DNA of 10,836 nt, taken from an uncultured Verrucomicrobiota bacterium. Lineage in GTDB: Bacteria; Verrucomicrobiota; Kiritimatiellia; RFP12; UBA1067. The translations under genes and the position numbers were made by a program. Shown here piece after piece: positions 1-10,836 of this stretch. A model generated the notes under the pieces. It made no database searches, was not told where the DNA came from, and saw only the letters and a list, made by a program, of their open reading frames with translations. The stretch covers positions 1-10,836 of the forward strand of contig CAMZET010000028.1 of the NCBI GenBank assembly GCA_947305825.1, in the 5' to 3' direction. Every line of letters starts with the position of its first letter. Within the stretch, counting starts at the first letter, position 1.

Positions 1-29
1 GCCCATGCGAGAGTAGGACGCCGCCGGCC
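1..29 (+). rRNA. rrf: 5S ribosomal RNA, 3' end (partial)
   Basis: The first bases carry the conserved 3' part of bacterial 5S rRNA: CCCATGCGAGAGTAGG at 2-17 matches the same stretch of the E. coli 5S gene as I remember it. It is followed by CGCCGCCGGCC, which would be the 3' strand of terminal helix I. The 5' strand lies outside the window. The window therefore starts at the end of an rRNA operon reading rightwards. The 3' end at about 29 is set by the start of the T-run. Confidence 0.85.
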
Positions 30-37
30 TTTTTTTT
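30..37 (+). terminator. T-run after 5S rRNA, probable rRNA operon terminator
   Basis: Eight T residues follow the GC-rich 3' strand of 5S helix I directly. A GC-rich stem followed by a U-run is the usual form of an intrinsic terminator. Here the stem would be the 5S terminal helix itself, whose other strand is outside the window, so pairing cannot be checked. Confidence 0.55.
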
Positions 38-38
38 A

Positions 39-87
39 TTTACGATTTGCGATTTGCGATTTGCGATTTACGATTTACGATTTGCGA
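39..87 (+). repeat. Tandem heptamer array, seven copies of TTT(A/G)CGA
   Basis: Seven back-to-back 7-base units run from 39 to 87 with no interruption. The fourth base varies: A, G, G, G, A, A, G. The array lies just downstream of the 5S terminator. In frame it would encode RFAIYDL-type repeats, but it has no coding character. Function is unknown. The last two units also form the head of the first ~80-base direct repeat. Confidence 0.9.
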
Positions 88-283
88 TTGCATTGTTCCA
101 TTGCGGCAATTTGGCCATTTGCGCAATTGGAATGGTTGAGGGGGTGAGATATTTACGATTTGCGATTGGATTGTTTTATTGCGGCTATTTGGGCATTTGC
201 GCAATTGGAAAGGTTGAGGTGTTGAGGGGGGTGAGATATTTACGATTTGCGATTGGATTGTTTTATTGCGGCTATTTGGGCAA
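74..283 (+). repeat. Three ~80-base direct repeats headed by the heptamer
   Basis: Copies start at 74, 152 and 239, each with TTTACGATTTGCGATTG. Copies 1 (74-151) and 2 (152-238) continue through a TTGCGGC(A/T)ATTTGG(C/G)CATTTGCGCAATTGG core and a G-rich tail ending GGTGAGATA. Copy 2 has an extra ~9 bases in the tail. Copy 3 matches copy 2 up to TATTTGGGCA near 282 and then diverges. Spacings are 78 and 87 bases, so it is not a CRISPR array. The open frame across it is a by-product of the repeats. Confidence 0.85.
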
Positions 284-298
284 TTCCGTAATGGACAA

Positions 299-317
299 AT
301 TGAATCAATGATTCAAT
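299..317. repeat. Perfect 8-bp inverted repeat with a 3-base loop
   Basis: ATTGAATC (299-306), loop AAT (307-309), GATTCAAT (310-317) is a perfect small palindrome. It lies between the third direct repeat and the inverted heptamers. It is AT-rich and has no T-run, so it is more likely part of the repeat element or a protein site than a terminator. Confidence 0.7.
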
Positions 318-323
318 GCAATT

Positions 324-350
324 GTAAATCGTAAATCGTAAATCGTAAAT
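324..350 (-). repeat. Heptamers in inverted orientation (3.9 copies of GTAAATC)
   Basis: GTAAATC occurs at 324, 331 and 338, with a partial copy at 345-350. Its reverse complement GATTTAC is the same unit as the 39-87 array, so the element is bounded by heptamer arrays facing each other about 310 bases apart. Transcribed or single-stranded, the ends could pair over about 27 bases, with A/G fourth-position mismatches. Confidence 0.85.
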
Positions 351-399
351 GGGCCCCTCCCCATCTCCTCAGCCTGCGAGAAAACACCCCCCGCCGTGC

Positions 400-428
400 T
401 GGACTTAAGGCACATAATTTGGTATAAT
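400..428 (+). promoter_or_regulatory. Probable sigma70 promoter of the secDF operon
   Basis: A perfect -10 hexamer TATAAT at 423-428 is preceded by TGG (extended -10, TGn). A 4/6 -35 match TGGACT lies at 400-405, with a 17-base spacer. Transcription should start near 435, giving a leader of about 40 bases. An AGGA ribosome site at 463-466 is 8 bases before the secDF ATG at 475. Confidence 0.65.
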
Positions 429-474
429 TAATATCCAATAGCCCGAATAGTAGGCTGAAAACAGGAACAGAACA

Positions 475-3048
<2,574 letters not shown>

Positions 3049-3070
3049 GCGGATGCGGACGGAAATCTGC

Positions 3071-3667
3071 ATGATTCTGACGTTGATTGGCGCCTACCTG
3101 GTAGGCGCCATTCCGTTTGGATTTCTAATCGGCAAGGCGCGCGGCGTGGACGTGCGCCTTGTCGGCTCCAAGAACATCGGGGCGACGAACGTATTCCGCA
3201 CGGTAGGGAAGAAGTGGGGTCTGGTGGCGTTCGCGCTCGATTTTCTCAAAGGTTTCGTGCCGACGCTTCTGGCGGTGCGAGGCGTGCTGCCGGCGGCGCC
3301 GGTGGCGGTCGGCGTCGCGTGCGTCCTCGGCCACATGTTCACGCCGTACATGAAGTTTCGCGGCGGCAAGGGCGTTGCGACGGCGTTCGGGATGCTCGTG
3401 GCGCTCGTGCCGGCGCTCGTCGGCGTCGCGTTCGCGCTCTTCGCGGTCGTTTTTGCGTTTTCCCATTACATATCGCTCGGCTCGATTGCGGCGGCGGCGT
3501 TTCTCGCCGTGGCGGTGTGGTTCCGCTGGCTCGGCTGCCCCGGGCCCGACGCTCCGCTCCAGGCCGCAGTAATTTCCATAATTGCATCGTTCGTAATATG
3601 GAAGCACCGGGCGAACATCGCCCGCCTCCTCTCCGGCACAGAGAACAAAATCACGCTGTTCAAGTAG
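3071..3667 (+). CDS. plsY: Acyl-phosphate glycerol-3-phosphate acyltransferase PlsY
   Basis: This integral-membrane enzyme transfers an acyl group from acyl-phosphate to glycerol-3-phosphate, giving lysophosphatidate, the first step of phospholipid synthesis. All three family motifs are visible: GSKNIGATNVFR (usually GSGN, here Lys for Gly), GHMFTPYMKFRGGKGVAT, and WKHRANIARLLSGTENK at the C-terminus. Between them are long hydrophobic segments, fitting the family's multi-span fold. Length is about 198 aa, as usual. I chose ATG 3071 because GGA at 3061-3063 is well spaced and the protein then starts right at the first membrane helix (MILTLIGAYLVG). An ATG at 3053, 4 bases after the secDF stop, would add six residues and cannot be excluded. 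Confidence 0.95.
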   Translation: MILTLIGAYLVGAIPFGFLIGKARGVDVRLVGSKNIGATNVFRTVGKKWGLVAFALDFLKGFVPTLLAVRGVLPAAPVAVGVACVLGHMFTPYMKFRGGKGVATAFGMLVALVPALVGVAFALFAVVFAFSHYISLGSIAAAAFLAVAVWFRWLGCPGPDAPLQAAVISIIASFVIWKHRANIARLLSGTENKITLFK

Positions 3668-3681
3668 GCCGGCTCACCGGC
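3668..3681 (+). other. Short GC hairpin after the plsY stop
   Basis: GCCGG-CTCA-CCGGC begins at the base after the plsY TAG, a perfect 5-bp stem with a 4-base loop. No T-run follows and hisS starts 49 bases later. It may stabilise the upstream mRNA or cause pausing, but it is not a convincing terminator. Confidence 0.4.
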
Positions 3682-3729
3682 GGGACGCAAGCCGCCCTGC
3701 GAACAAAGTTAGTTAAAAGGTATACCGAC

Positions 3730-4968
3730 ATGGCAGACAGAATCAGTTTCGACGCGCCAAGAGGCATGAGGGACTTCTATCCCGAAGACATGCAGTGGCG
3801 CAACAAGGTTTTCGACGCCTTCCGCGCGGCGGGCGAGGCTGCGGGCTTCGACCAGTACGACGCCTGCGTAGTCGAAAGCTACGAGCTTCTCGCCCGCAAG
3901 GCCGGCGAGGAAGTCTCCGAGCAGATATACCACTTCTTCGACAAGTCCGAGCGCCACCTGGCGCTGCGCCCGGAAATGACGCCCACGCTCGCCCGCCTCG
4001 TCGCCCAGCGCCAGAAGGAACTCCCGTTGCCGCTGAAGTGGACGACCATCGCGCAGTGCTTCCGCTACGAGCGCATGACAAAGGGGCGCAAGCGCGAGCA
4101 CTACCAGTGGAATCTGGACATAATCGGCGAAGAGAGCGTGATGGCCGAGGTGGAAGTCCTGGGCGCGGCGGTGGACGCCCTGCGCCGCATGGGGCTTACG
4201 ACTGACGATTTCAGGGTTCGCGTGTCGTCGCGCCGTTTTCTGTCGCGTCTGCTGGGCGAGAGCGGCATAGCGCCGGAGAAGCACGCGCAGGTGTTTTTGG
4301 CGCTCGACAAGCGCGGGAAGATGCCCGATACTGAAATTGGGGCGATGTTGCTCGACGGCGGCCTCACGGAGCAGGAGGTTTCTGCGGCTTTCGCCATAAT
4401 GGAGACGAAGGACTATTCGGCGTGCGAAGAGCTGGTCGAGCTTTTCCGCCTCGCGAAGGTGGCGGGTTTTGCAGATGCGCTCGTGTTCGACATTGGCGTG
4501 ATACGCGGTCTTTCGTACTACACTGGCATCGTGTTCGAGGCGTTCGACGCGAAAGGGGAGTTCCGTGCGATATTCGGCGGAGGGCGCTACGACAATCTTT
4601 TGACGGCGATAGGCGGCGAGCCGACGAGCGCGGTTGGTCTCGGGTTCGGCGACGTAGTGGTGACGGAGTTGTTGAAGTCGCGGCTCGGTGCGGAGGCGGC
4701 CGTCACGCGCACAGGGACGGCGGTAGGCTACATGACGGACGGCGAGCGCGACGCCGCGCTGGCTTTGGCGCGTTCGCTTCGCTCATCGGGCGAGCGGGTC
4801 GACCTGGCGTTGCGGCCGGCCAAGCCGAAAAAGTTTTTCGCGCGCGCCGCTGCGACAGCCGCGAAAGCCGTGTTCATCGGCCCGGACGATGTTGCTGCGC
4901 GCTCAGCCCGCTTGAAAGACCTCGCTACGCGCGAAGAGACGGTTGTCGCGCTTCCCGCCGCGCCTTGA
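3730..4968 (+). CDS. hisS: Histidine--tRNA ligase
   Basis: This class II aminoacyl-tRNA synthetase charges tRNA-His with histidine. The 412-aa product has the N-terminal RGMRDFYPED; the substrate motif LRPEMTPTLARL from residue 79 (the variant of the more common LRPEGT type); motif 2 RYER at 112-115 followed by GRKREHYQWNLD; the histidine-specific RGLSYYTG at 259; motif 3 GGGRYDN from 283; and a C-terminal anticodon-binding domain. The open frame extends far upstream over plsY, but the start is set at ATG 3730 by the AAGG site at 3717-3720 and because homology begins there. It lies 62 bases after plsY. Confidence 0.96.
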   Translation: MADRISFDAPRGMRDFYPEDMQWRNKVFDAFRAAGEAAGFDQYDACVVESYELLARKAGEEVSEQIYHFFDKSERHLALRPEMTPTLARLVAQRQKELPLPLKWTTIAQCFRYERMTKGRKREHYQWNLDIIGEESVMAEVEVLGAAVDALRRMGLTTDDFRVRVSSRRFLSRLLGESGIAPEKHAQVFLALDKRGKMPDTEIGAMLLDGGLTEQEVSAAFAIMETKDYSACEELVELFRLAKVAGFADALVFDIGVIRGLSYYTGIVFEAFDAKGEFRAIFGGGRYDNLLTAIGGEPTSAVGLGFGDVVVTELLKSRLGAEAAVTRTGTAVGYMTDGERDAALALARSLRSSGERVDLALRPAKPKKFFARAAATAAKAVFIGPDDVAARSARLKDLATREETVVALPAAP

Positions 4969-5008
4969 CGGACTCCGCTTCTTTCCACAGCACGCCTGAA
5001 CCGATGAC

Positions 5009-5518
5009 ATGAAGAACGATCTGGAGCCGATACTGCGGGAAATGAGTTCCCGCTTCAAGCGCCTGAGAAGCGCCCTAGCCGTAGGGTTTGGGCATTCCGG
5101 GGCGGTTTCCGCCCTGCGCACTCGTCTGGGCGGCATCTGGATGGACGTGCCGGCGGCGGCGGAACTCGACTTCGACGAAGCGCAGTTCGACGCCGTCGTG
5201 GTCGCGCCCGGCGCCGTTTCGCGCGAAGTGGCTCGCGAGGCGAACCGCGTTTTGCGCGCCGACGGTTTCATGTTTTTCACGGTGCCGGAACGCCGCCGCG
5301 GCTCCGACGCCGGCTACACCGCCCCGGAAGTCTACAGAATCGTCCGCGAGGGGTTCGACATACTGTCCGTGGTGCGTCCGAAGTGGTGGCATTTCGGGTT
5401 CGCCGGGCACACGCTCACGGTGACGGCGCGCAAGAAGGCGTGGCGCGAGCACAAGGGACTTCGCGGTTCGGGCGGCACGTATTTTTTCAAGCCTTTCAAC
5501 GACAAGGAGAAACGATGA
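5009..5518 (+). CDS. Small SAM-methyltransferase-like protein, unassigned
   Basis: This 169-aa protein looks like a shortened class I methyltransferase. GFGHSGAV near 26-33 sits where the glycine-rich SAM-binding loop would be, but it is not a clean GxGxG. The stretch FDAVVVAPGAVSREVAREAN at 60-79, then RVLRADGFMFFTVPE, matches the motif IV/V pattern of Methyltransf_11-type enzymes (the 'RvLrpGG.l...' signature). The C-terminal part ends in a Lys/Arg-rich tail. At about two thirds of the usual domain length it may be inactive or have a structural role. No strong Shine-Dalgarno precedes the ATG. The start lies 40 bases after hisS and the stop overlaps the next ATG by 4 bases, so it is translationally coupled to the Sel1 protein. 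Substrate cannot be inferred. Confidence 0.6.
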   Translation: MKNDLEPILREMSSRFKRLRSALAVGFGHSGAVSALRTRLGGIWMDVPAAAELDFDEAQFDAVVVAPGAVSREVAREANRVLRADGFMFFTVPERRRGSDAGYTAPEVYRIVREGFDILSVVRPKWWHFGFAGHTLTVTARKKAWREHKGLRGSGGTYFFKPFNDKEKR

Positions 5519-6666
5519 AGACAAGATTCGGCAAGGCGCTTTGCGCCGCCGCCGCCGCGTTGGCGATGCTTTCCGCCGCGCCGGAATGTCTGGCGGACGG
5601 CGACGACGCCCGTTCGAGCGAAGAGGCCATACTTCGCCTCATAAACTCCCGTTCTTCCGGCAATCCAAAGGCGTATGCCGCCGCCGCCGAGCGTGTCGCC
5701 AGCGAAGCCGAGGACGGCAAGCCGCTGCAGCAGTTCGTGATTGCACTCGTATCGCGCGAGCAGCGTCCGCCGCCGGCCGCGCGTCTTTCCGATGAGGTGC
5801 GCAACAGGTATCTCGCTCAATCGCGCGGTAAAATACGCGCACTCGCCGAGCGCCGCGACAACGCCCTCGCCTGGTATCTCCTGTCGCTCGAATCCAACGA
5901 CATGCAGCTTCTGAAGAGGGCGGTCGATGCGCAAAACGTCCAGGCTCTCAACGCCTGGGGAACGATTGCCATTGCGAAGAAACTGAACGACCCCAACGTA
6001 AACACCAACGACCTCGTCCGCATCCTCTACCAGAGTTATTCATGCTTCAAGACGGCGGCGGACCGCCATGACGCGAATGGGCTTTACAATCTCGGGATGT
6101 GCTACATGCACGGCTACGGTGTGCAGCCGGACCCGTTCCGGGCGCTGGAGTGCTTTCGCGCGGCGGCGGCGGAAGACCATCCGGAGGCAATCAACAACAT
6201 AGGCGGCTTCTACCGCGACGGCATCGTGGTCGAGCGCGACCCGATAATTGCGGCTCGATGGTTCGCCAAGTCCGCCGATTTCGGCAATGCATACGGCGAG
6301 TTGAACTACGCCTACGCGCTGCAGCGCGGCGAGGGCGTTGCGCAGGACAAGGAGCGCGCGGCGAGGATGTTCAAGTCGAGCGCCGAGCAGGGCACAGTCG
6401 AGGCCATGAACGCCTGGGGCAAGTGCCTCTACGACGGCGACGGCGTGGAGCAAGACCGCGACATGGCCGTGCGCTGGTATCGCGTCGCGGCAGAGCGCGG
6501 CTTCCCGCCGGCGATGGAGAACTACGCCGCGTGTTTCGAGAACGCTTCCGGCGGCCTTCTCAAGGACTACAAGACGGCGACCGTGTGGCGCATGCGCGCA
6601 CGCGCCGCCAGGGGCGACCGCAATGCGGCCGCCTGGCTCCTGCAGAACGGTCATGAACTCAGATAG
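5515..6666 (+). CDS. Secreted Sel1-repeat protein
   Basis: This 383-aa exported protein probably acts as a protein-protein interaction scaffold in the periplasm. The N-terminus has a typical Sec signal peptide: MKTRFGK, an alanine-rich core, and likely cleavage after Cys-Leu-Ala near residue 27. There is no proper lipobox. From about 186 to the end there are roughly five ~36-residue Sel1-like (alpha/alpha) repeats, recognisable from A..NLG..Y..G.GV..D...A..WF..AA..G patterns (for example NLGMCYMHGYGVQPD, ALQRGEGVAQD, WGKCLYDGDGVEQD). The region 30-185 is helical-looking and unassigned. ATG 5515 is used because it overlaps the upstream stop and begins the signal peptide. Upstream in-frame ATGs lie inside the methyltransferase-like gene. 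Confidence 0.88.
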   Translation: MKTRFGKALCAAAAALAMLSAAPECLADGDDARSSEEAILRLINSRSSGNPKAYAAAAERVASEAEDGKPLQQFVIALVSREQRPPPAARLSDEVRNRYLAQSRGKIRALAERRDNALAWYLLSLESNDMQLLKRAVDAQNVQALNAWGTIAIAKKLNDPNVNTNDLVRILYQSYSCFKTAADRHDANGLYNLGMCYMHGYGVQPDPFRALECFRAAAAEDHPEAINNIGGFYRDGIVVERDPIIAARWFAKSADFGNAYGELNYAYALQRGEGVAQDKERAARMFKSSAEQGTVEAMNAWGKCLYDGDGVEQDRDMAVRWYRVAAERGFPPAMENYAACFENASGGLLKDYKTATVWRMRARAARGDRNAAAWLLQNGHELR

Positions 6667-6678
6667 GCGGTCGCGCGA

Positions 6679-7503
6679 ATGAGACTTCTTTTTCTAGGCG
6701 ACGTGGTCGGCAGCCCCGGACGCAGAATCATCAAGGAAAACGTCAAGCGCCTCAAGAAGGAACTTTCTATCGGCGCCGTGGTCGCCAACGCGGAGAACTG
6801 CGCCGCCGGCTCGGGCATCACCGCCGCCCTCGCAGAGGAAATCAGGGATTGCGGCGTCGACGCCATCACGCTCGGCGACCACACCTGGGGCCAGAAGGAG
6901 TTCGCCACGCAAATCGATACTTTGGGTTTTGTGGCGCGTCCGGCTAACTTTCCGCAAGGCTGCCCGGGAAAAGGCTGGCTGACCGTCACGTTGCCGACTG
7001 CCTCCTTCGCCGTCGTCAACCTCCAGGGCCGCACTTTCATGAACCCCATCGACTGCCCCTTCAGGACTATCGACCGCGTTCTCGCAGAAATACCGAAAAA
7101 CCTCCCCGTCTTCATAGATTTCCACGCCGAGGCGACAAGCGAGAAAATCGCGCTTGCGAGCTATGTGGACGGGCGGGTCACGGCCGTTGTCGGCACGCAT
7201 ACGCACGTGCAGACTTCCGATGCGTTCATCCTGCCGGGAGGGACCGCGTTTCTGACAGATCTCGGCATGACGGGCCCTTACGTTTCGTCCATCGGGCGCG
7301 AGCTGAAGCCGGTCTTGAAGAGGTTCCTGACGGGGATGCCCAGCCGGTTCGAGGTCGCTGGCGGGCCGGCGACGCTCGAAGGAGCGATAATCGATTTCGA
7401 CCCTGCGACGCGCCTGGCCTCCGCCATCGAGACGTTCCGGCTGCGCGAGCCGTTGCCGCAGCCGCCGGCCACCGCGCCATGCAAGGGCGTCCGTAAGAAA
7501 TGA
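6679..7503 (+). CDS. ymdB: YmdB-family metallophosphoesterase (cyclic nucleotide phosphodiesterase)
   Basis: The 274-aa product has the complete motif set of the YmdB/TIGR00282 family, dimetal enzymes that hydrolyse 2',3'-cyclic nucleotides and are linked in Bacillus to RNase Y and biofilm control. Visible are GDVVGSPGR (Asp8), NAENCAAGSG (Glu39, Asn40), LGDHTW (Asp67, His68), RPANFP, FHAEATSEK (His149), GTHTHVQT (His174, His176) and LTDLGMTGPY. These fall at nearly the same positions as the metal ligands I remember for B. subtilis YmdB, except that residue 67, Asn there, is Asp here. Length matches the family. The start is 12 bases after sel1, and the stop overlaps the next gene by 4 bases. 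Confidence 0.94.
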   Translation: MRLLFLGDVVGSPGRRIIKENVKRLKKELSIGAVVANAENCAAGSGITAALAEEIRDCGVDAITLGDHTWGQKEFATQIDTLGFVARPANFPQGCPGKGWLTVTLPTASFAVVNLQGRTFMNPIDCPFRTIDRVLAEIPKNLPVFIDFHAEATSEKIALASYVDGRVTAVVGTHTHVQTSDAFILPGGTAFLTDLGMTGPYVSSIGRELKPVLKRFLTGMPSRFEVAGGPATLEGAIIDFDPATRLASAIETFRLREPLPQPPATAPCKGVRKK

Positions 7504-7847
7504 AGCGCAAGGGACTTGTCGAATACGATTTGCACAGGCGCGGAATGAAGGTGGAAGACGCCCTGGCGCAGCTAGAACGCATAGTCTCCGCAGAGCGCGC
7601 GCGGCGTCCCGCCGTCTTCGCCGTCGTTACCGGCTACGGCTCCACCGGCGGGACCGCGCTCATAAAGAGCGCCGTGATTGCGCAGTGCCGCCGCTTCGCC
7701 CGCCAGAACCACATCCGAGGCTTCCTCGACGGCGAATATGCCGGCGACATATTTTCGGACGAGGCGCTTTCGTTCCCGGCGCTCTTCGCGCTGCCGCCGG
7801 AGGCGAAGCGTTCTCCGAATCCCGGCGTCGTCTTCATCGCCGTCTGA
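7500..7847 (+). CDS. Small Smr-domain protein
   Basis: This 115-aa protein matches a stand-alone Smr (small MutS-related) domain. Such domains bind or nick structured DNA or RNA. YDLHRRGMKVEDALAQLERI (9-28) fits the 'DLHG...eA...l' motif, with DLH at 10-12. VVTGYGSTGGTALIKSAV (42-59) fits the 'I.HGkG.g.LR..V' motif, with Thr-Gly-Tyr-Gly for His-Gly-x-Gly. It starts by ATGA overlap with ymdB, so the two are coupled. An ISL3 transposase remnant begins within about 10 bases after the stop, so the natural C-terminus could have been altered. Confidence 0.75.
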   Translation: MKRKGLVEYDLHRRGMKVEDALAQLERIVSAERARRPAVFAVVTGYGSTGGTALIKSAVIAQCRRFARQNHIRGFLDGEYAGDIFSDEALSFPALFALPPEAKRSPNPGVVFIAV

Positions 7848-7850
7848 ACG

Positions 7851-8408
7851 CCTAAAGTCCTGGAAATGTCCAGCAACGTCAAAAGTGCAATGCAGATTTT
7901 GTAGTTGAATTGGGAGCGGCCCCAGGCCATGATGACGAGGGCTGTCGAAAGAGGAATGTCCGCCAGGCTCCTGGAAGAGATTTCCGCTGTCGGCATCGCC
8001 GAGAAGAGTTTCAAGAAAAGGAAGCCGACGCCCGAAGAGGAAGCGGCAGGCAAAAAGGACGAACGGTTCATAAGCGTCATGGTGGATCATGGCACCGGCA
8101 GGTTGCTGGACGTCGTGCCGGGCCGAAGCGAAGAAAGTGGAACCGCCTTTATAGACAAGGCCCTGCTTCCTTGGCAACAATTCTACGTTGGAGCCGTGAA
8201 GATCGGCAAGGCATGGGGTTGCAAGCAGAGCTTCAACGCGATATAAGGGCGGCGCGGCATTGACTTTGCAAGAGAATATTTCAAGAGATGGTACGACAGC
8301 GCCATGAAATCCGGATTGGCGCCCATCAAGAAAGTGGCGCGCATGGTCAAGCGACATCTCGAAGGAATATTGAACTGGTACAAGTGGCATATCGCCAACG
8401 GAATTTAG
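7851..8408 (+). pseudogene. Eroded ISL3-family transposase
   Basis: One reading frame (frame of 7854) shows a broken ISL3 DDE transposase. First KVLEMSSNVKSAMQIL, then an in-frame TAG at 7902. Next WERPQAMMTRAVERGMSARL with the first catalytic-region motif GIAEKSF (normally GIDEKSF, so the catalytic Asp is Ala) and FISVMVDHGTGRLLDVVPGR. After VGAVKI there is a TAA at 8244. The frame then resumes with the family's C-terminal IDFAREYFKRWYDSAMKSG and VARMVKRHLEGILNWYKW, ending in TAG 8406-8408. The middle of the transposase and the N-terminal zinc-binding region are missing. Two in-frame stops, an internal deletion and the lost Asp mean it is dead. No clear terminal inverted repeats were found. 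Confidence 0.75.
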
Positions 8409-8476
8409 CGAAGTGCGGGTGGTGATGGGGGTAGATAAATTATAAAATAAATAAATCAAATAAACAAAAATCCCCC
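8409..8476. other. AT-rich non-coding tract upstream of the regulator promoter
   Basis: The stretch 8432-8470 is almost pure A/T (taaattataaaataaataaatc and on), unlike the GC-rich surroundings. It lies directly upstream of the -35 box, where an UP element or a nucleoid-protein/regulator site would be. No coding frame or clear operator palindrome is seen. Confidence 0.5.
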
Positions 8477-8505
8477 TTGATGCCGGAGCAGGAAAATGGT
8501 ATAAT
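8477..8505 (+). promoter_or_regulatory. Strong sigma70 promoter, probably producing a leaderless mRNA
   Basis: The -35 TTGATG (8477-8482), a 17-base spacer and a perfect -10 TATAAT (8500-8505), with TGG just before it (extended -10), form a near-consensus promoter. Only six bases (GCGCTC) separate the -10 from the ATG at 8512. A start 6-7 bases after the -10 would fall on or next to the A of the start codon. No Shine-Dalgarno is present in that space. Confidence 0.75.
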
Positions 8506-8511
8506 GCGCTC

Positions 8512-9567
8512 ATGATTGAGATAGGTGCCATAGTGGCGGCGAAACGCTCGGAGAAGGGAGTTGGACAGAATGAGCTTGCCCGGCGGGCTGATATGTCGCC
8601 GTCGCAGCTTTGTCTTTTGGAGAAGGACAGGGTCAGCCCTACCGTGCGCACTCTCGAGAGAATAGCGGAGGCCCTCGGCATATCGTTCTGGGATTTGGTG
8701 GCGGAGCCGCCCAGAGAGGGCGCACAGGGCGGCGCACCGCGTGCCGCAACCCGTCTTGGGGACTATGTCGCGCTGCGTCTAGGCGAACCTTGGGCGGGGA
8801 AAGCGCTCAATGATATATTGCCGCGTGAGCGCGAAATCTCATCGATTGAAGACGGCAAGGGGGTGGATTCGGCGTGTCGGCTGCTTTTGAAGTACCCAAA
8901 GGGGAAGTTGGAAGGGTCTGGTGCTGTAATCGCGGGGGCTGCGCGCGCTTCTCTCGGCATTGGGACTGCGCCGTACTGCGACCTCGCCGGATGTCTCGAT
9001 TTTAATGGAGTGCGCATCCACAAAATCCCTCTCTCCTACCAGGTGCAAAGCGCGGCTTATTGGAACACGGAGCGGAAAACGTTCTCAATCATCTTGAGTG
9101 CTGCCAATACTCCGGAGCGGGATTTATACAGGCTCGCATGGGAACTCGGAAGCATATGTATATTTTCATCTCTCGGATTCGTACCGTTTGAAGAAACGCA
9201 TGCGTACCACCGCTTCCTAACCGACTTTTCGGCGGAATTGCTCATGCCGGCCGTCACGGTACAGAGTTTCTCGGCCTCGACTGGTATCGCCAGAAACGGC
9301 TGGACGCTGGAGACCGTCTGTGCGCTGAAAGCGAAGTTCGGCGTCTCGGCGGAGACGTTCGCCCTGCGTCTCGACGAACTGGGCCTCATCGACCCGGCGG
9401 TGCGCATCGGGATAAGGGACGCGCTGCGCGCACACTACGTTTCCCATCCTGACGAAATGGAGCCCGCGCCGCGCCTGGCGCCGTTGAATATCGCCTCCCG
9501 TGTCCAGATTCTCGCCGGTACGCCGCGCAATCCGTCTGCCCAGCCGGCAAAGGAGACCATGCAATGA
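8512..9567 (+). CDS. XRE-family regulator with a degenerate ImmA/IrrE (M78)-like domain
   Basis: This 351-aa protein is probably a transcriptional regulator. Residues 2-62 form a clear XRE/Cro helix-turn-helix (QNELARRADMSPSQLCLLEK, then SPTVRTLERIAEALGIS). A linker to about 80 follows. From about 150 to 295 the layout resembles the ImmA/IrrE peptidase family: DLAGCLDFNGVRIHKIPL, a beta-strand pair (YWNTERKTFSIILS), then LYRLAWELGSICIF where the family has the zinc helix r.tlAHELGH, then FSAELLMP (239-246) and a final helical part ending RLDELGLI. The HEXXH site is W210-E-L-G-S214, so both histidines are gone and no metalloprotease activity is expected; the fold may serve as a sensor. The start is ATG 8512, directly behind the promoter. 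The stop overlaps the next frame by ATGA. The family link of the second domain rests on pattern and order and is less certain than the HTH. Confidence 0.85.
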   Translation: MIEIGAIVAAKRSEKGVGQNELARRADMSPSQLCLLEKDRVSPTVRTLERIAEALGISFWDLVAEPPREGAQGGAPRAATRLGDYVALRLGEPWAGKALNDILPREREISSIEDGKGVDSACRLLLKYPKGKLEGSGAVIAGAARASLGIGTAPYCDLAGCLDFNGVRIHKIPLSYQVQSAAYWNTERKTFSIILSAANTPERDLYRLAWELGSICIFSSLGFVPFEETHAYHRFLTDFSAELLMPAVTVQSFSASTGIARNGWTLETVCALKAKFGVSAETFALRLDELGLIDPAVRIGIRDALRAHYVSHPDEMEPAPRLAPLNIASRVQILAGTPRNPSAQPAKETMQ

Positions 9568-9698
9568 ATACAGGAATCTACGCCCACAGCCGACGGGACC
9601 TCCCTATCGACAAGTGGCAGCCGCTTCAAGATTCTCGGATATTGAAATTGGAGGATTTGATATATGGGACAGCATTGCATTATTCCCGAAGTGGTTGA
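9564..9698 (+). pseudogene. cas3: Probable cas3 5' remnant (44 codons, type I-C-like N-terminus)
   Basis: The frame starts by ATGA overlap with the regulator and reads MNTGIYAHSRRDLPIDKWQP, then LQDSRILKLEDL, and ends at TGA 9696. YAHS...P...WQPLQ is the usual opening of type I-C Cas3 proteins, just before the HD nuclease (family pattern: YAHS, then WQ.L..HL). After LQD the resemblance stops: the expected His-Leu and the HD motifs are absent. A full Cas3 has more than 700 residues; only 377 bases separate this ATG from the end of the frame before cas5. I see a cas3 that has lost almost everything but its first ~23 codons. The alternative is a chance resemblance in a 44-codon spurious frame, but the position next to cas5 and cas8 argues against that. 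Confidence 0.5.
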
Positions 9699-9936
9699 AC
9701 CGTGGACATTGCCAAAACCCTTCTTACAATTATCCCATTAAATGAAAGTTGCTATTGCGCACTATCCGAACATATGCTATACTGTCCTTCGTCGTGAGCG
9801 GAATAGGCATCAAAAGAGCAGACTTCGCGTCATGTGAATTGAAACATTTATTGGGACAATATGATTCGTTCATCCTCCGCAATCTCGCGTTGGATGAACG
9901 AGCCAAGATGGGCAGTATTGCAATGAAAGGACTAAA
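9699..9936 (+). other. Gap between the cas3-like start and cas5; holds a 63-codon frame (9749-9940)
   Basis: No recognisable gene fills this stretch. All frames are short: one ends at 9743-9745, another at the TGA near 9790. The only frame reaching cas5 opens at a TTG at 9749 and ends at TGA 9938-9940, sharing an ATGA overlap with the cas5 ATG. Its product includes ELKHLLGQYDSFILRNLALD and ends in AMKGLK. I do not recognise it. Because it is coupled to cas5, it could be the 3' end of the deleted upstream gene (cas3), shifted in frame, or an unrelated small protein. It has no good ribosome site. Confidence 0.35.
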
Positions 9937-10587
9937 ATGAAAGCTTATCAAGTTAAACTTGAGATTGCAGGACCGACTGCGATGTGGACAAGACCGGACA
10001 CGGGCGATTGCCCTGTGAGTTATCCTGCGCCCACATATTCTGCTGTCGCAGGGATATTCAAAGCAATTTGTTGGGGGCCTGCCGTTGACATCGTTCCTTT
10101 TAAGGCTGAAATTTGCCGACCGTTGCATTATGAGCAATACATGACCAATTATCGTGGGCCGTTACGTGAAAAAATAGATGACAATTCTTTTCAGTTCATG
10201 GCAACGGTTCTGACGGATGTTTGTTACCGTCTTTATGCATATGTCTATCCTTCACGGAATAAGGATGAGCTTCCAGAATCTGCTAAAAAGTGGGATGCAA
10301 AAACAACATCGCCAGGGCATGCATACGCGGCAATGTTTGAACGGCGACTTAATCGGGGGCAAAGTTTTACACGACCATGTCTTGGATGGAAAGAATTTAC
10401 ACCTACATACTTTGGACCGTTTCGTTCTGAAACGAAAGTGTGTTCGGACATCAATATGGTTATTCCGTCAATGTTGCGACAAGTGTTTGATGATAGATTC
10501 ATGGGTATTAAGCACGTTATTTTTGATCAGAATGTCGAGATAGTAAATGGAGCCATTGTTTATTCGAATTCCGGGAAAGGTGAGTGA
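9937..10587 (+). CDS. cas5: CRISPR-associated protein Cas5, type I-C-like
   Basis: Cas5 is a RAMP-fold subunit of the Cascade surveillance complex that caps the 5' handle of the crRNA. In type I-C, which lacks Cas6, Cas5 also cuts the pre-crRNA. The 216-aa product shows the family pattern: the N-terminal strand YQVKLEIAGPTAMWTRPD, then PVSYPAPTYSAVAGIFKAI and WGPAV (the usual form is TRPE..ERVSY..TPSAARGILEAI.WKP), a middle TDVCYRLYAYVYP, and YAAMFERRLNRGQSF with LGWKEF near the C-terminus. It is divergent from the classic I-C sequence. AAAGGA at 9926-9931, 5 bases before the ATG, sets the start. It is more AT-rich than the core genes (A/T-ending codons such as AAA, TTT, ATT, GCA), consistent with transfer. 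It is complete. The putative RNase residues cannot be assigned by eye. Confidence 0.85.
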   Translation: MKAYQVKLEIAGPTAMWTRPDTGDCPVSYPAPTYSAVAGIFKAICWGPAVDIVPFKAEICRPLHYEQYMTNYRGPLREKIDDNSFQFMATVLTDVCYRLYAYVYPSRNKDELPESAKKWDAKTTSPGHAYAAMFERRLNRGQSFTRPCLGWKEFTPTYFGPFRSETKVCSDINMVIPSMLRQVFDDRFMGIKHVIFDQNVEIVNGAIVYSNSGKGE

Positions 10588-10589
10588 AG

Positions 10590-10836
10590 ATGGTAAATGA
10601 ATTGATAGCAGCATCTCAAGCCATTTCGCGTTTTGCACCCAATAGGCTTGTCTCTTGGCACCCATTGTTGCAACCAATGCCAGGTAATTCCTGTTATAGG
10701 ATTTGGCTTTCAAGTGATGGCATGGTCTTATCAGTGGATGTTTTAGAAAAAGATCATGTGAAGAACCTTCGCAAATTTGCGCCGAACAAGCATAAAAGTT
10801 TTCCGGGTTTCAACATGATGGTTCTACGAGGATACA
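10590..10836 (+). CDS. cas8c: Probable Cas8c/Csd1 large subunit, N-terminal fragment (runs off the window)
   Basis: ATG 10590 comes 2 bases after the cas5 stop, with AAAGG at 10576-10580 as ribosome site, and the frame is open to the window end (82 codons). The fragment contains SWHPLLQP, CYRIWLSSDGMVLSVDVLEK and FAPNKHKSFPGFNM. A strand pair with 'D.dG.v..v' followed by a conserved basic and Pro stretch resembles the start of Csd1/Cas8c proteins, and cas8c follows cas5 directly in type I-C operons. The call rests mainly on gene order plus this weak resemblance. In the complex this subunit recognises the PAM and recruits Cas3. Confidence 0.55.
   Translation, partial: MVNELIAASQAISRFAPNRLVSWHPLLQPMPGNSCYRIWLSSDGMVLSVDVLEKDHVKNLRKFAPNKHKSFPGFNMMVLRGY

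Follow-up and report, generated by a model that had tools for sequence, protein, structure and literature searches.

Why does a type I-C cas operon of the clustered regularly interspaced short palindromic repeats (CRISPR) family open with cas5, with a mere scrap of cas3 in front of it, and what occupies the space between the two? This question is raised by the right-hand end of a 10,836-nucleotide (nt) stretch of DNA (hereafter the window) from an uncultured Verrucomicrobiota bacterium (GenBank assembly GCA_947305825.1, contig CAMZET010000028.1, positions 1 to 10,836 of the forward strand), in which a regulator gene, a 44-codon open reading frame (ORF), cas5 and the 5′ part of cas8c follow each other (Table 1). 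The first-pass annotation of this DNA had proposed an operon that lost its cas3 and would bind DNA without degrading it. We favor, with a probability of about 0.7, another reading: the window shows the first genes of a variant type I-C operon in which cas3 comes after cas7, and its leader carries a scrap of an old cas3 together with a guide resembling the cas-regulating RNAs known as CreR, which would repress the cas promoter.

Position of cas3 in the variant type I-C operon

The window was assigned to type I-C by its pair of Cas5c and Cas8c genes. Its Cas5 was recognized as Cas5c by PADLOC (expectation value, E=3e-23; the NCBIfam Cas5c score, 53.8, lies below the cut-off of 85) and aligned over its full length with 23 relatives, and cas8c was open over its 84 visible codons and matched PADLOC Cas8c PDLC01562 (E=1.3e-14), which bears out the first-pass annotation in calling cas5 intact and cas8c intact as far as it is visible. 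Relatives were collected through the window Cas5, which had 2,102 matches in the protein database at E<=0.001, the best 120 of them listed, and of the 170 loci confirmed, 80 from species genomes were retained (designated by L numbers); their contigs come from metagenome-assembled genomes, and single cases may be misassembled. Downstream of cas5, these relatives show ORFs of about 700, 300, 730, 210, and 340 codons. The products of the first three matched Cas8c, Cas7, and Cas3c (two, one, and two proteins scanned, respectively), the two 730-codon proteins reaching 5.6e-94 and 1.8e-95 with PADLOC Cas3c, and the genes next after this cas3 matched cas4 and cas1 where annotated. The gene order of the clade is thus cas5-cas8c-cas7-cas3-cas4-cas1-cas2.

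Using a clade Cas3 profile, which was built from 65 of the same 730-codon ORFs that it later counted, cas3 was found between cas7 and cas4 in all 58 loci with at least 6.5 kb past the cas5 start (as a single ORF of at least 700 codons in 57 of them, being split in L033) and in all 12 loci with 4.2–6.5 kb; the remaining 10 of the 80 loci end earlier. The order cas5-cas8c-cas7-cas3-cas4 was also present in L186, from the family inferred for the window's host on the basis of the SecDF of genome G096, which is 67% identical. A cas3 elsewhere in the operon of relatives, which the first-pass annotation had itself named as an objection to its proposal, is therefore what these loci contain, and a system without Cas3 is left unsupported. 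In the window, no cas3 was detected by the clade profile in any frame (best E 6). This absence is uninformative, because the window ends 900 bases past the cas5 start; the window's own cas3 most likely lies after cas7, about 2.7 kb past the window end.

The downstream Cas3 of the relatives is of another type than canonical I-C Cas3, whose gene stands first in all five canonical I-C operons taken from plasmids, and the variant Cas5 clade was separated with support 100 from four canonical Cas5 proteins in a 98-row tree. Searches for the variant Cas5 in viral contigs gave 32 pattern matches, none of them confirmed, and those in plasmids gave 36 records, all with less than 60% identity. As a separate observation, L019 contains before cas5 a 239-codon ORF (9202–9921) corresponding to the Cas3 HD part without helicase, in addition to a full Cas3 downstream.

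A candidate guide in the cas5 leader

The array repeats of the relatives mostly end in GTG[G/A]ATTGAAAC or close to it. The window contains, 91 bases before cas5, the sequence GTGAATTGAAAC, identical in 12 of 12 positions to the array repeat ends of L003 and L005; with up to one mismatch allowed, 0.07 occurrences of this handle would be expected in the whole window. The bases preceding the handle are, by eye, strongly degenerate in comparison with the L003 repeat. A repeat end within 700 bases before cas5 was found in 12 of 99 loci; as controls, the 700 bases beyond gave 3 of 81, cas8c gave one, and five shuffles gave 0 to 1. The window thus shows the first trait of CreR, an ectopic degenerate repeat (psi-repeat) beside cas genes. 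The leader (9699–9940) also folds better than its shuffles (z-score −2.5), and an Rfam scan of the window gave no matches at gathering scores.

The 15 bases that follow the handle, the start of a psi-spacer, match a site on the opposite strand that lies directly after a TTC protospacer-adjacent motif (PAM), positions 6 and 12 being the only mismatches. All 13 scored positions agree (site with its TTC, 9746 to 9729), the pattern that located this target at 9729–9746 (−) having been written from this very match. Among 21 handle candidates in 19 loci, four reached 13 of 13 and six reached 11 or 12; of 4,200 shuffled psi-spacers, 1.3% attained 11 or 12 and none attained 13. The other 11 candidates, with 7 to 9 of 13, were rejected as guides (one each in L010, L014, L024, L029, L030, L048, L051, and L131, the second candidate in L015, and two in L130). 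A wider search of 96 loci detected handle plus target in 11, the window included; scrambled handles gave a mean of 0.13 loci and a maximum of one in 30 runs.

Every sixth base is flipped out of guide-target pairing in Cascade. When each of the 66 pairs of positions between 2 and 13 was taken as the pair to be ignored, only (6,12) gave at least three loci (six). In addition, nine of 34 handle candidates were chosen on positions 1–5 and 7–11 alone, and these showed a mismatch at position 6 in seven cases, a mismatch at position 12 in eight, and a match at position 13 in all nine. Since positions 6 and 12 are the bases that Cascade flips out, the mismatches are an internal sign of the mechanism. 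On the Cas5 tree the guide is scattered (15 of 89 rows, 14 changes, counting the 10 best handle candidates and the extra loci of the wider search), a pattern that either rapid evolution of the element or missed cases would produce.

The second trait of CreR was found as well: part of the psi-spacer matches a site that is flanked by a PAM and lies at the candidate cas promoter, itself a consensus match only. In the window the target covers the −10 box of TGGACA-16-TACAAT. Across the 10 loci compared, the target overlapped a top-scoring promoter-like site in seven, 3.1 being expected under random placement. We infer that the guide of the window is transcribed and processed and that it represses cas. 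According to this model, the space before cas5 would be a regulatory leader, in which the degenerate repeat and the psi-spacer form the gene of a guide similar to a CRISPR RNA (crRNA), and the cas3 scrap would be the 5′ end of an earlier, canonical cas3 that used to open the operon. Once loaded into the I-C Cascade, the guide would direct it, through about 13 to 16 matching bases, to the TTC-flanked site over the cas promoter; the bound Cascade would repress cas transcription, the pairing being too short for cutting, and antiviral crRNAs or anti-CRISPRs would relieve the repression. Repression without cutting, which the first-pass annotation had suggested, appears to return here as a short-match guide at the operon's own promoter region, and not through a missing Cas3.

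Remnants of cas3 in front of cas5

The 44-codon ORF, whose ATG overlaps the regulator stop as ATGA, matched no Pfam, NCBIfam, or PADLOC family at E<=10; it was not listed at E<=1 by a profile of five canonical Cas3 N-termini run on all frames of 81 sequences, gave two chance-level matches in PDB, neither of them Cas3, and had none in plasmids. With a profile of 14 Cas3 N-termini, 10 of which derive from relatives' stubs and none from the window, the region before cas5 scored 14.8 bits, against a maximum of 7.0 in 81 reverse-strand regions and 6.7 in 81 shuffled regions; none of 3,000 Markov regions reached this score (highest 13.3), and the ORF alone scored 16.5 bits, the best of its 20,000 residue shuffles giving 8.9. 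In 191 control regions further upstream, 6.3 bits were exceeded only in L068 (61.4), L065 (18.5), L070 (12.9), and L075 (11.3), which we take as other cas3 relics; that of L068 is surely one, and those of L070 and L075 could be due to chance. The likeness comprises about 20 residues and stops before the HD motif, and the ORF has neither this motif nor a match to curated Cas3/HD families. The likeness seen by the first-pass annotation is thus real, if weak, and the ORF looks like a cas3 5′ remnant. The profile search whose failure at 9564–9640 the first-pass annotation had named as an objection succeeded with the 14-member profile and yielded nothing with curated families or canonical-only profiles. 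One relative of the ORF, P0121, has 44 residues and is 89% identical, with differences limited to residues 2–5 and 20; because of this equal length and identity, the ORF may be a kept gene.

The first-pass annotation had also read two ATGA overlaps, at 9564–9567 and 9937–9940, as the borders of one former gene. Both overlaps are present, but the 63-codon frame that ends in the second (9749–9940) matches no family. As a Cas3 C-terminus this frame was discarded: no window row exceeded 8 bits with the canonical Cas3 profile, the frame was outside the best window fragments listed for the clade Cas3 profile, and by eye it is unlike two canonical C-termini.

Stubs of this kind recur among the relatives. 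At least 13.8 bits were scored in the 700 bases before cas5 by 16 of 80 relatives in addition to the window; nine of the 16 contributed to the profile, and the five canonical N-termini alone recovered 12 of the 16 at E<0.001. In 18 extra loci from two phylum searches (L121–L138), 14 scored at least 34.9 bits and four did not (among the 14, three are taken as repeats of loci already counted, and L060 recurs as one of the four). In no locus did a whole canonical cas3 stand immediately in front of cas5; in 62 of the 80 loci the sequence on that side extends over at least 2.3 kb, which would suffice for one. The end points of the 25 stubs scoring above 8 bits on the canonical Cas3 profile ranged from 42 to 198, 16 of them at 52–63, around the HD motif; these stubs are not all independent, and the window, L065, and L079 fall below the 8-bit line. 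Four further loci (L168–L171; genome and contig G773:C45, G755:C231, G526:C227, and G519:C38) carry a canonical stub whose end is close to the HD motif; next to it begins a further I-C-like operon, which opens with a different, full-length cas3. In L172 (G742:C106), effector genes are absent between a stub (10442–10582, −) and cas4-cas1-cas2, apparently a module lost with both borders left, and some stubs stand alone.

Closely similar stubs were found next to cas5 genes that differ widely. The 162 bases before cas5 are 99% identical in L069 and L128, whose cas5 genes are 69% identical, and 77 stub bases are 96% alike in L074 and L126, with cas5 61% identical. (The stub parts of these last two mosaic loci carry what looks like the same palindrome-like insertion.) Different stubs bear equal tails, and P0122 and P0123 share a common stub with unlike tails past the HD motif. 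The L069 stub matched 54 short proteins of 42–99 residues in the protein database, in a search that admits about 35–110 residues, and truncation at contig ends may account for some of these. Stub presence (26 of 93 rows) requires a minimum of 12 changes on the Cas5 tree. Some stubs have defects (a stop in L073, frameshifts in L133 and L011), and between L072 and L075 the stub shows six nonsynonymous and three synonymous codon differences, the corresponding numbers for cas5 being 9 and 32. Between L069 and L074 the stub has 7, 5, and 23 changes by codon position over 41 codons and looks constrained.

One functional stub protein conserved in all lineages was rejected because of the lesions in L073, L133, and L011 and of the L072/L075 pattern, and a simple insertion into a resident cas3 was rejected on finding no C-terminal cas3 piece listed after the operon in the available sequence of the 80 loci. 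We read the stubs as probable scars of effector-module exchange with a favored border; one ancient truncation, passed on by recombination, would produce a largely similar picture. Tentatively, and as a possibility rather than our expectation, stubs ending at the HD motif may mark the recurrent left border of an in-place exchange of I-C effector modules, in which the stub serves as crossover homology, some stubs, such as the 44-codon ORF of the window, are kept as small genes or leaders, and the incoming modules carry or evolve their own CreR-like guide.

Table 1. Features at the right-hand end of the window (positions in the window).
Feature	Position	Strand	Remarks
XRE helix-turn-helix (HTH)/M78-peptidase (RmrA-like) regulator gene	8512..9567	+	Pfam HTH_3, Peptidase_M78; PADLOC RmrA 1.7e-16
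44-codon ORF containing an apparent cas3 5′ remnant	9564..9698	+	Cas3-like part about 9576–9635
Sigma70-like promoter, candidate cas promoter	9703..9730	+	TGGACA-16-TACAAT, 10/12
Putative self-guide target	9710..9746	−	TTC PAM 9744–9746; protospacer of assumed length, its seed running from 9743 to 9729
Psi-repeat (degenerate CRISPR repeat)	9814..9845	+	Length assumed from relatives; 3′ handle GTGAATTGAAAC 9834–9845
Psi-spacer of the candidate CreR-like guide	9846..9879	+	Length taken as about 34 nt
Inverted repeat	9866..9901	+	Two 15-nt arms, 6-nt loop; inside leader
Intact cas5 (Cas5c), opening the variant I-C operon	9937..10587	+	
5′ part of cas8c, truncated at the end of the window	10584..10836	+	GTG at 10584; ATG at 10590

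Regarding the neighboring genes, RmrA-like XRE/M78 regulators adjoin the variant operon in the window and, in two members of the family inferred for its host, in L064/L106 and L108; two orientations occur, and in L064/L106 a 39% identical relative of the window's regulator stands directly before cas5. At the other end of the window, short repeated units (1–311), in a frame reading FAICDLRFTIYDLRL, precede secDF, and a 919-codon open frame (313–3072, −) antisense to the secDF-like gene is probably a product of base composition.

Alternative explanations and comparison with known systems

Several observations weigh against a CreR-like guide in front of a complete variant operon. The window's own cas3, cas7, and array lie beyond its end; a handle with up to one mismatch arises in 15 of 200 window shuffles; and processing of the psi-repeat by Cas5 is uncertain, because by eye the stem is strongly degenerate and mostly lost. 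Chance would yield 0.9 promoter matches of the grade of TGGACA-16-TACAAT per region, the best promoter-like site lies outside the target in three of 10 loci (by up to 14 bases in L046 and L034, by 101 in L015), and no guide was found by the strict test in 85 of the 96 loci.

The main rival is a CreTA-like arrangement, because a 31-codon arginine-rich frame starting at 9742 (9742–9840), a possible small toxin or a product of chance, lies between target and psi-repeat and fills that space. The guide would then be a CreA antitoxin repressing a small toxin gene and not cas. Such a pair would account for the overlap of the target with the promoter-like site at 9703–9730, a second, weaker pair TTGCGC/TATACT (9755–9783, 8/12) could serve the guide, and the position of the L015 target, 101 bases ahead of the best promoter-like site in front of cas5, would fit as well. 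We nevertheless consider it unlikely, since by eye no ribosome-binding site precedes 9742 and the targets sit on the top-scoring promoter-like site before cas5 more often than random placement predicts. It is less probable still that the inverted match between 9729–9743 and 9846–9860 represents half-sites of the XRE regulator. A DNA-binding regulator gene does adjoin, and the two sites form an imperfect inverted repeat, but one copy comes directly after a CRISPR repeat end and the other directly after a PAM, and the relatives differ in sequence while keeping the layout and the 6/12 mismatch pattern.

The two remaining alternatives concern cas3 itself. A binding-only repressor module left by loss of cas3 would agree with the lack of cas3 inside the window and with an upstream scrap of about 20 residues; it is made very improbable by the cas3 found after cas7 in the 70 clade relatives with enough sequence and in L186 from the inferred host family. 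Plain decay of the whole locus, its 5′ gene rotting first, could draw on the stops or frameshifts in the stubs of L073, L133, and L011; we give it equally little weight, as cas5 is intact and conserved, cas8c is open, and the 44-residue ORF is kept at equal length in P0121. A variant operon with a downstream cas3 and a CreR-like guide in its leader thus remains our preferred reading. Under it, self-repression by crRNA-like guides would extend to type I-C, a common CRISPR subtype, and the mismatch pattern on flipped-out bases would make it easy to search further operons for such guides. The cas3 stubs may be a physical record of where effector modules have been swapped, and where cas3 has moved, a missing or broken cas3 called from the 5′ end of an I-C operon may be an error.

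Compared with a canonical I-C operon, that of the Nitratidesulfovibrio plasmid L081, the variant shares the Cas5c, Cas8c, Cas7, Cas3, Cas4, and Cas1 families, and its relatives have repeats of I-C type; it differs in that cas3 is first in L081, whereas in the variant clade cas3, of another type, comes after cas7. The window Cas5 is about 26–31% identical to plasmid Cas5c among the 20 records listed. With CreR, described in the available parts of PMC12737573 and PMC13131331 as cas-regulating crRNA-like RNAs through which the effector represses without cutting, the window shares a candidate crRNA-like RNA, short complementarity to the cognate cas promoter, and predicted repression without cutting. 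The accessible text of PMC13131331 names I-B, I-E, and V-A, and the present case is a I-C variant with relocated cas3; in a literature search mostly confined to papers outside subscription, none of the papers listed combined 'CreR' and 'type I-C' as whole words. The CreTA toxin-antitoxin RNA guards, as presented in the portion of PMC9458426 at hand, resemble it in their ectopic degenerate repeats and in a guide partly matching a promoter. They differ in the toxin: no toxin gene was recognized in the window, relatives not having been searched for small toxin genes. The targets here also tend to sit on the promoter-like site before cas5 (7/10).

As to the stubs, the same literature search found no description of cas3 stubs before I-C operons. 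In Escherichia and Salmonella, cas3 and cse1 pseudogenes lie beside apparently intact I-E operons, and I-E cas genes were replaced by recombination at conserved flanks (PMC2886076); that case, as far as the consulted part of the source extends, concerns I-E in closely related strains, with no repeated stub end point across phyla and no leader guide. In situ shuffling of effector modules, in which effector genes are exchanged and adaptation genes stay (PMC6452270, PMC12669027, in the sections available), would share with the present case the exchange of effectors beside retained adaptation genes. The sections of PMC6452270 available place the exchange near cas6 and cas1/2/4 and mention no scar, whereas here the left-hand scar would be a cas3 5′ stub ending near the HD motif.

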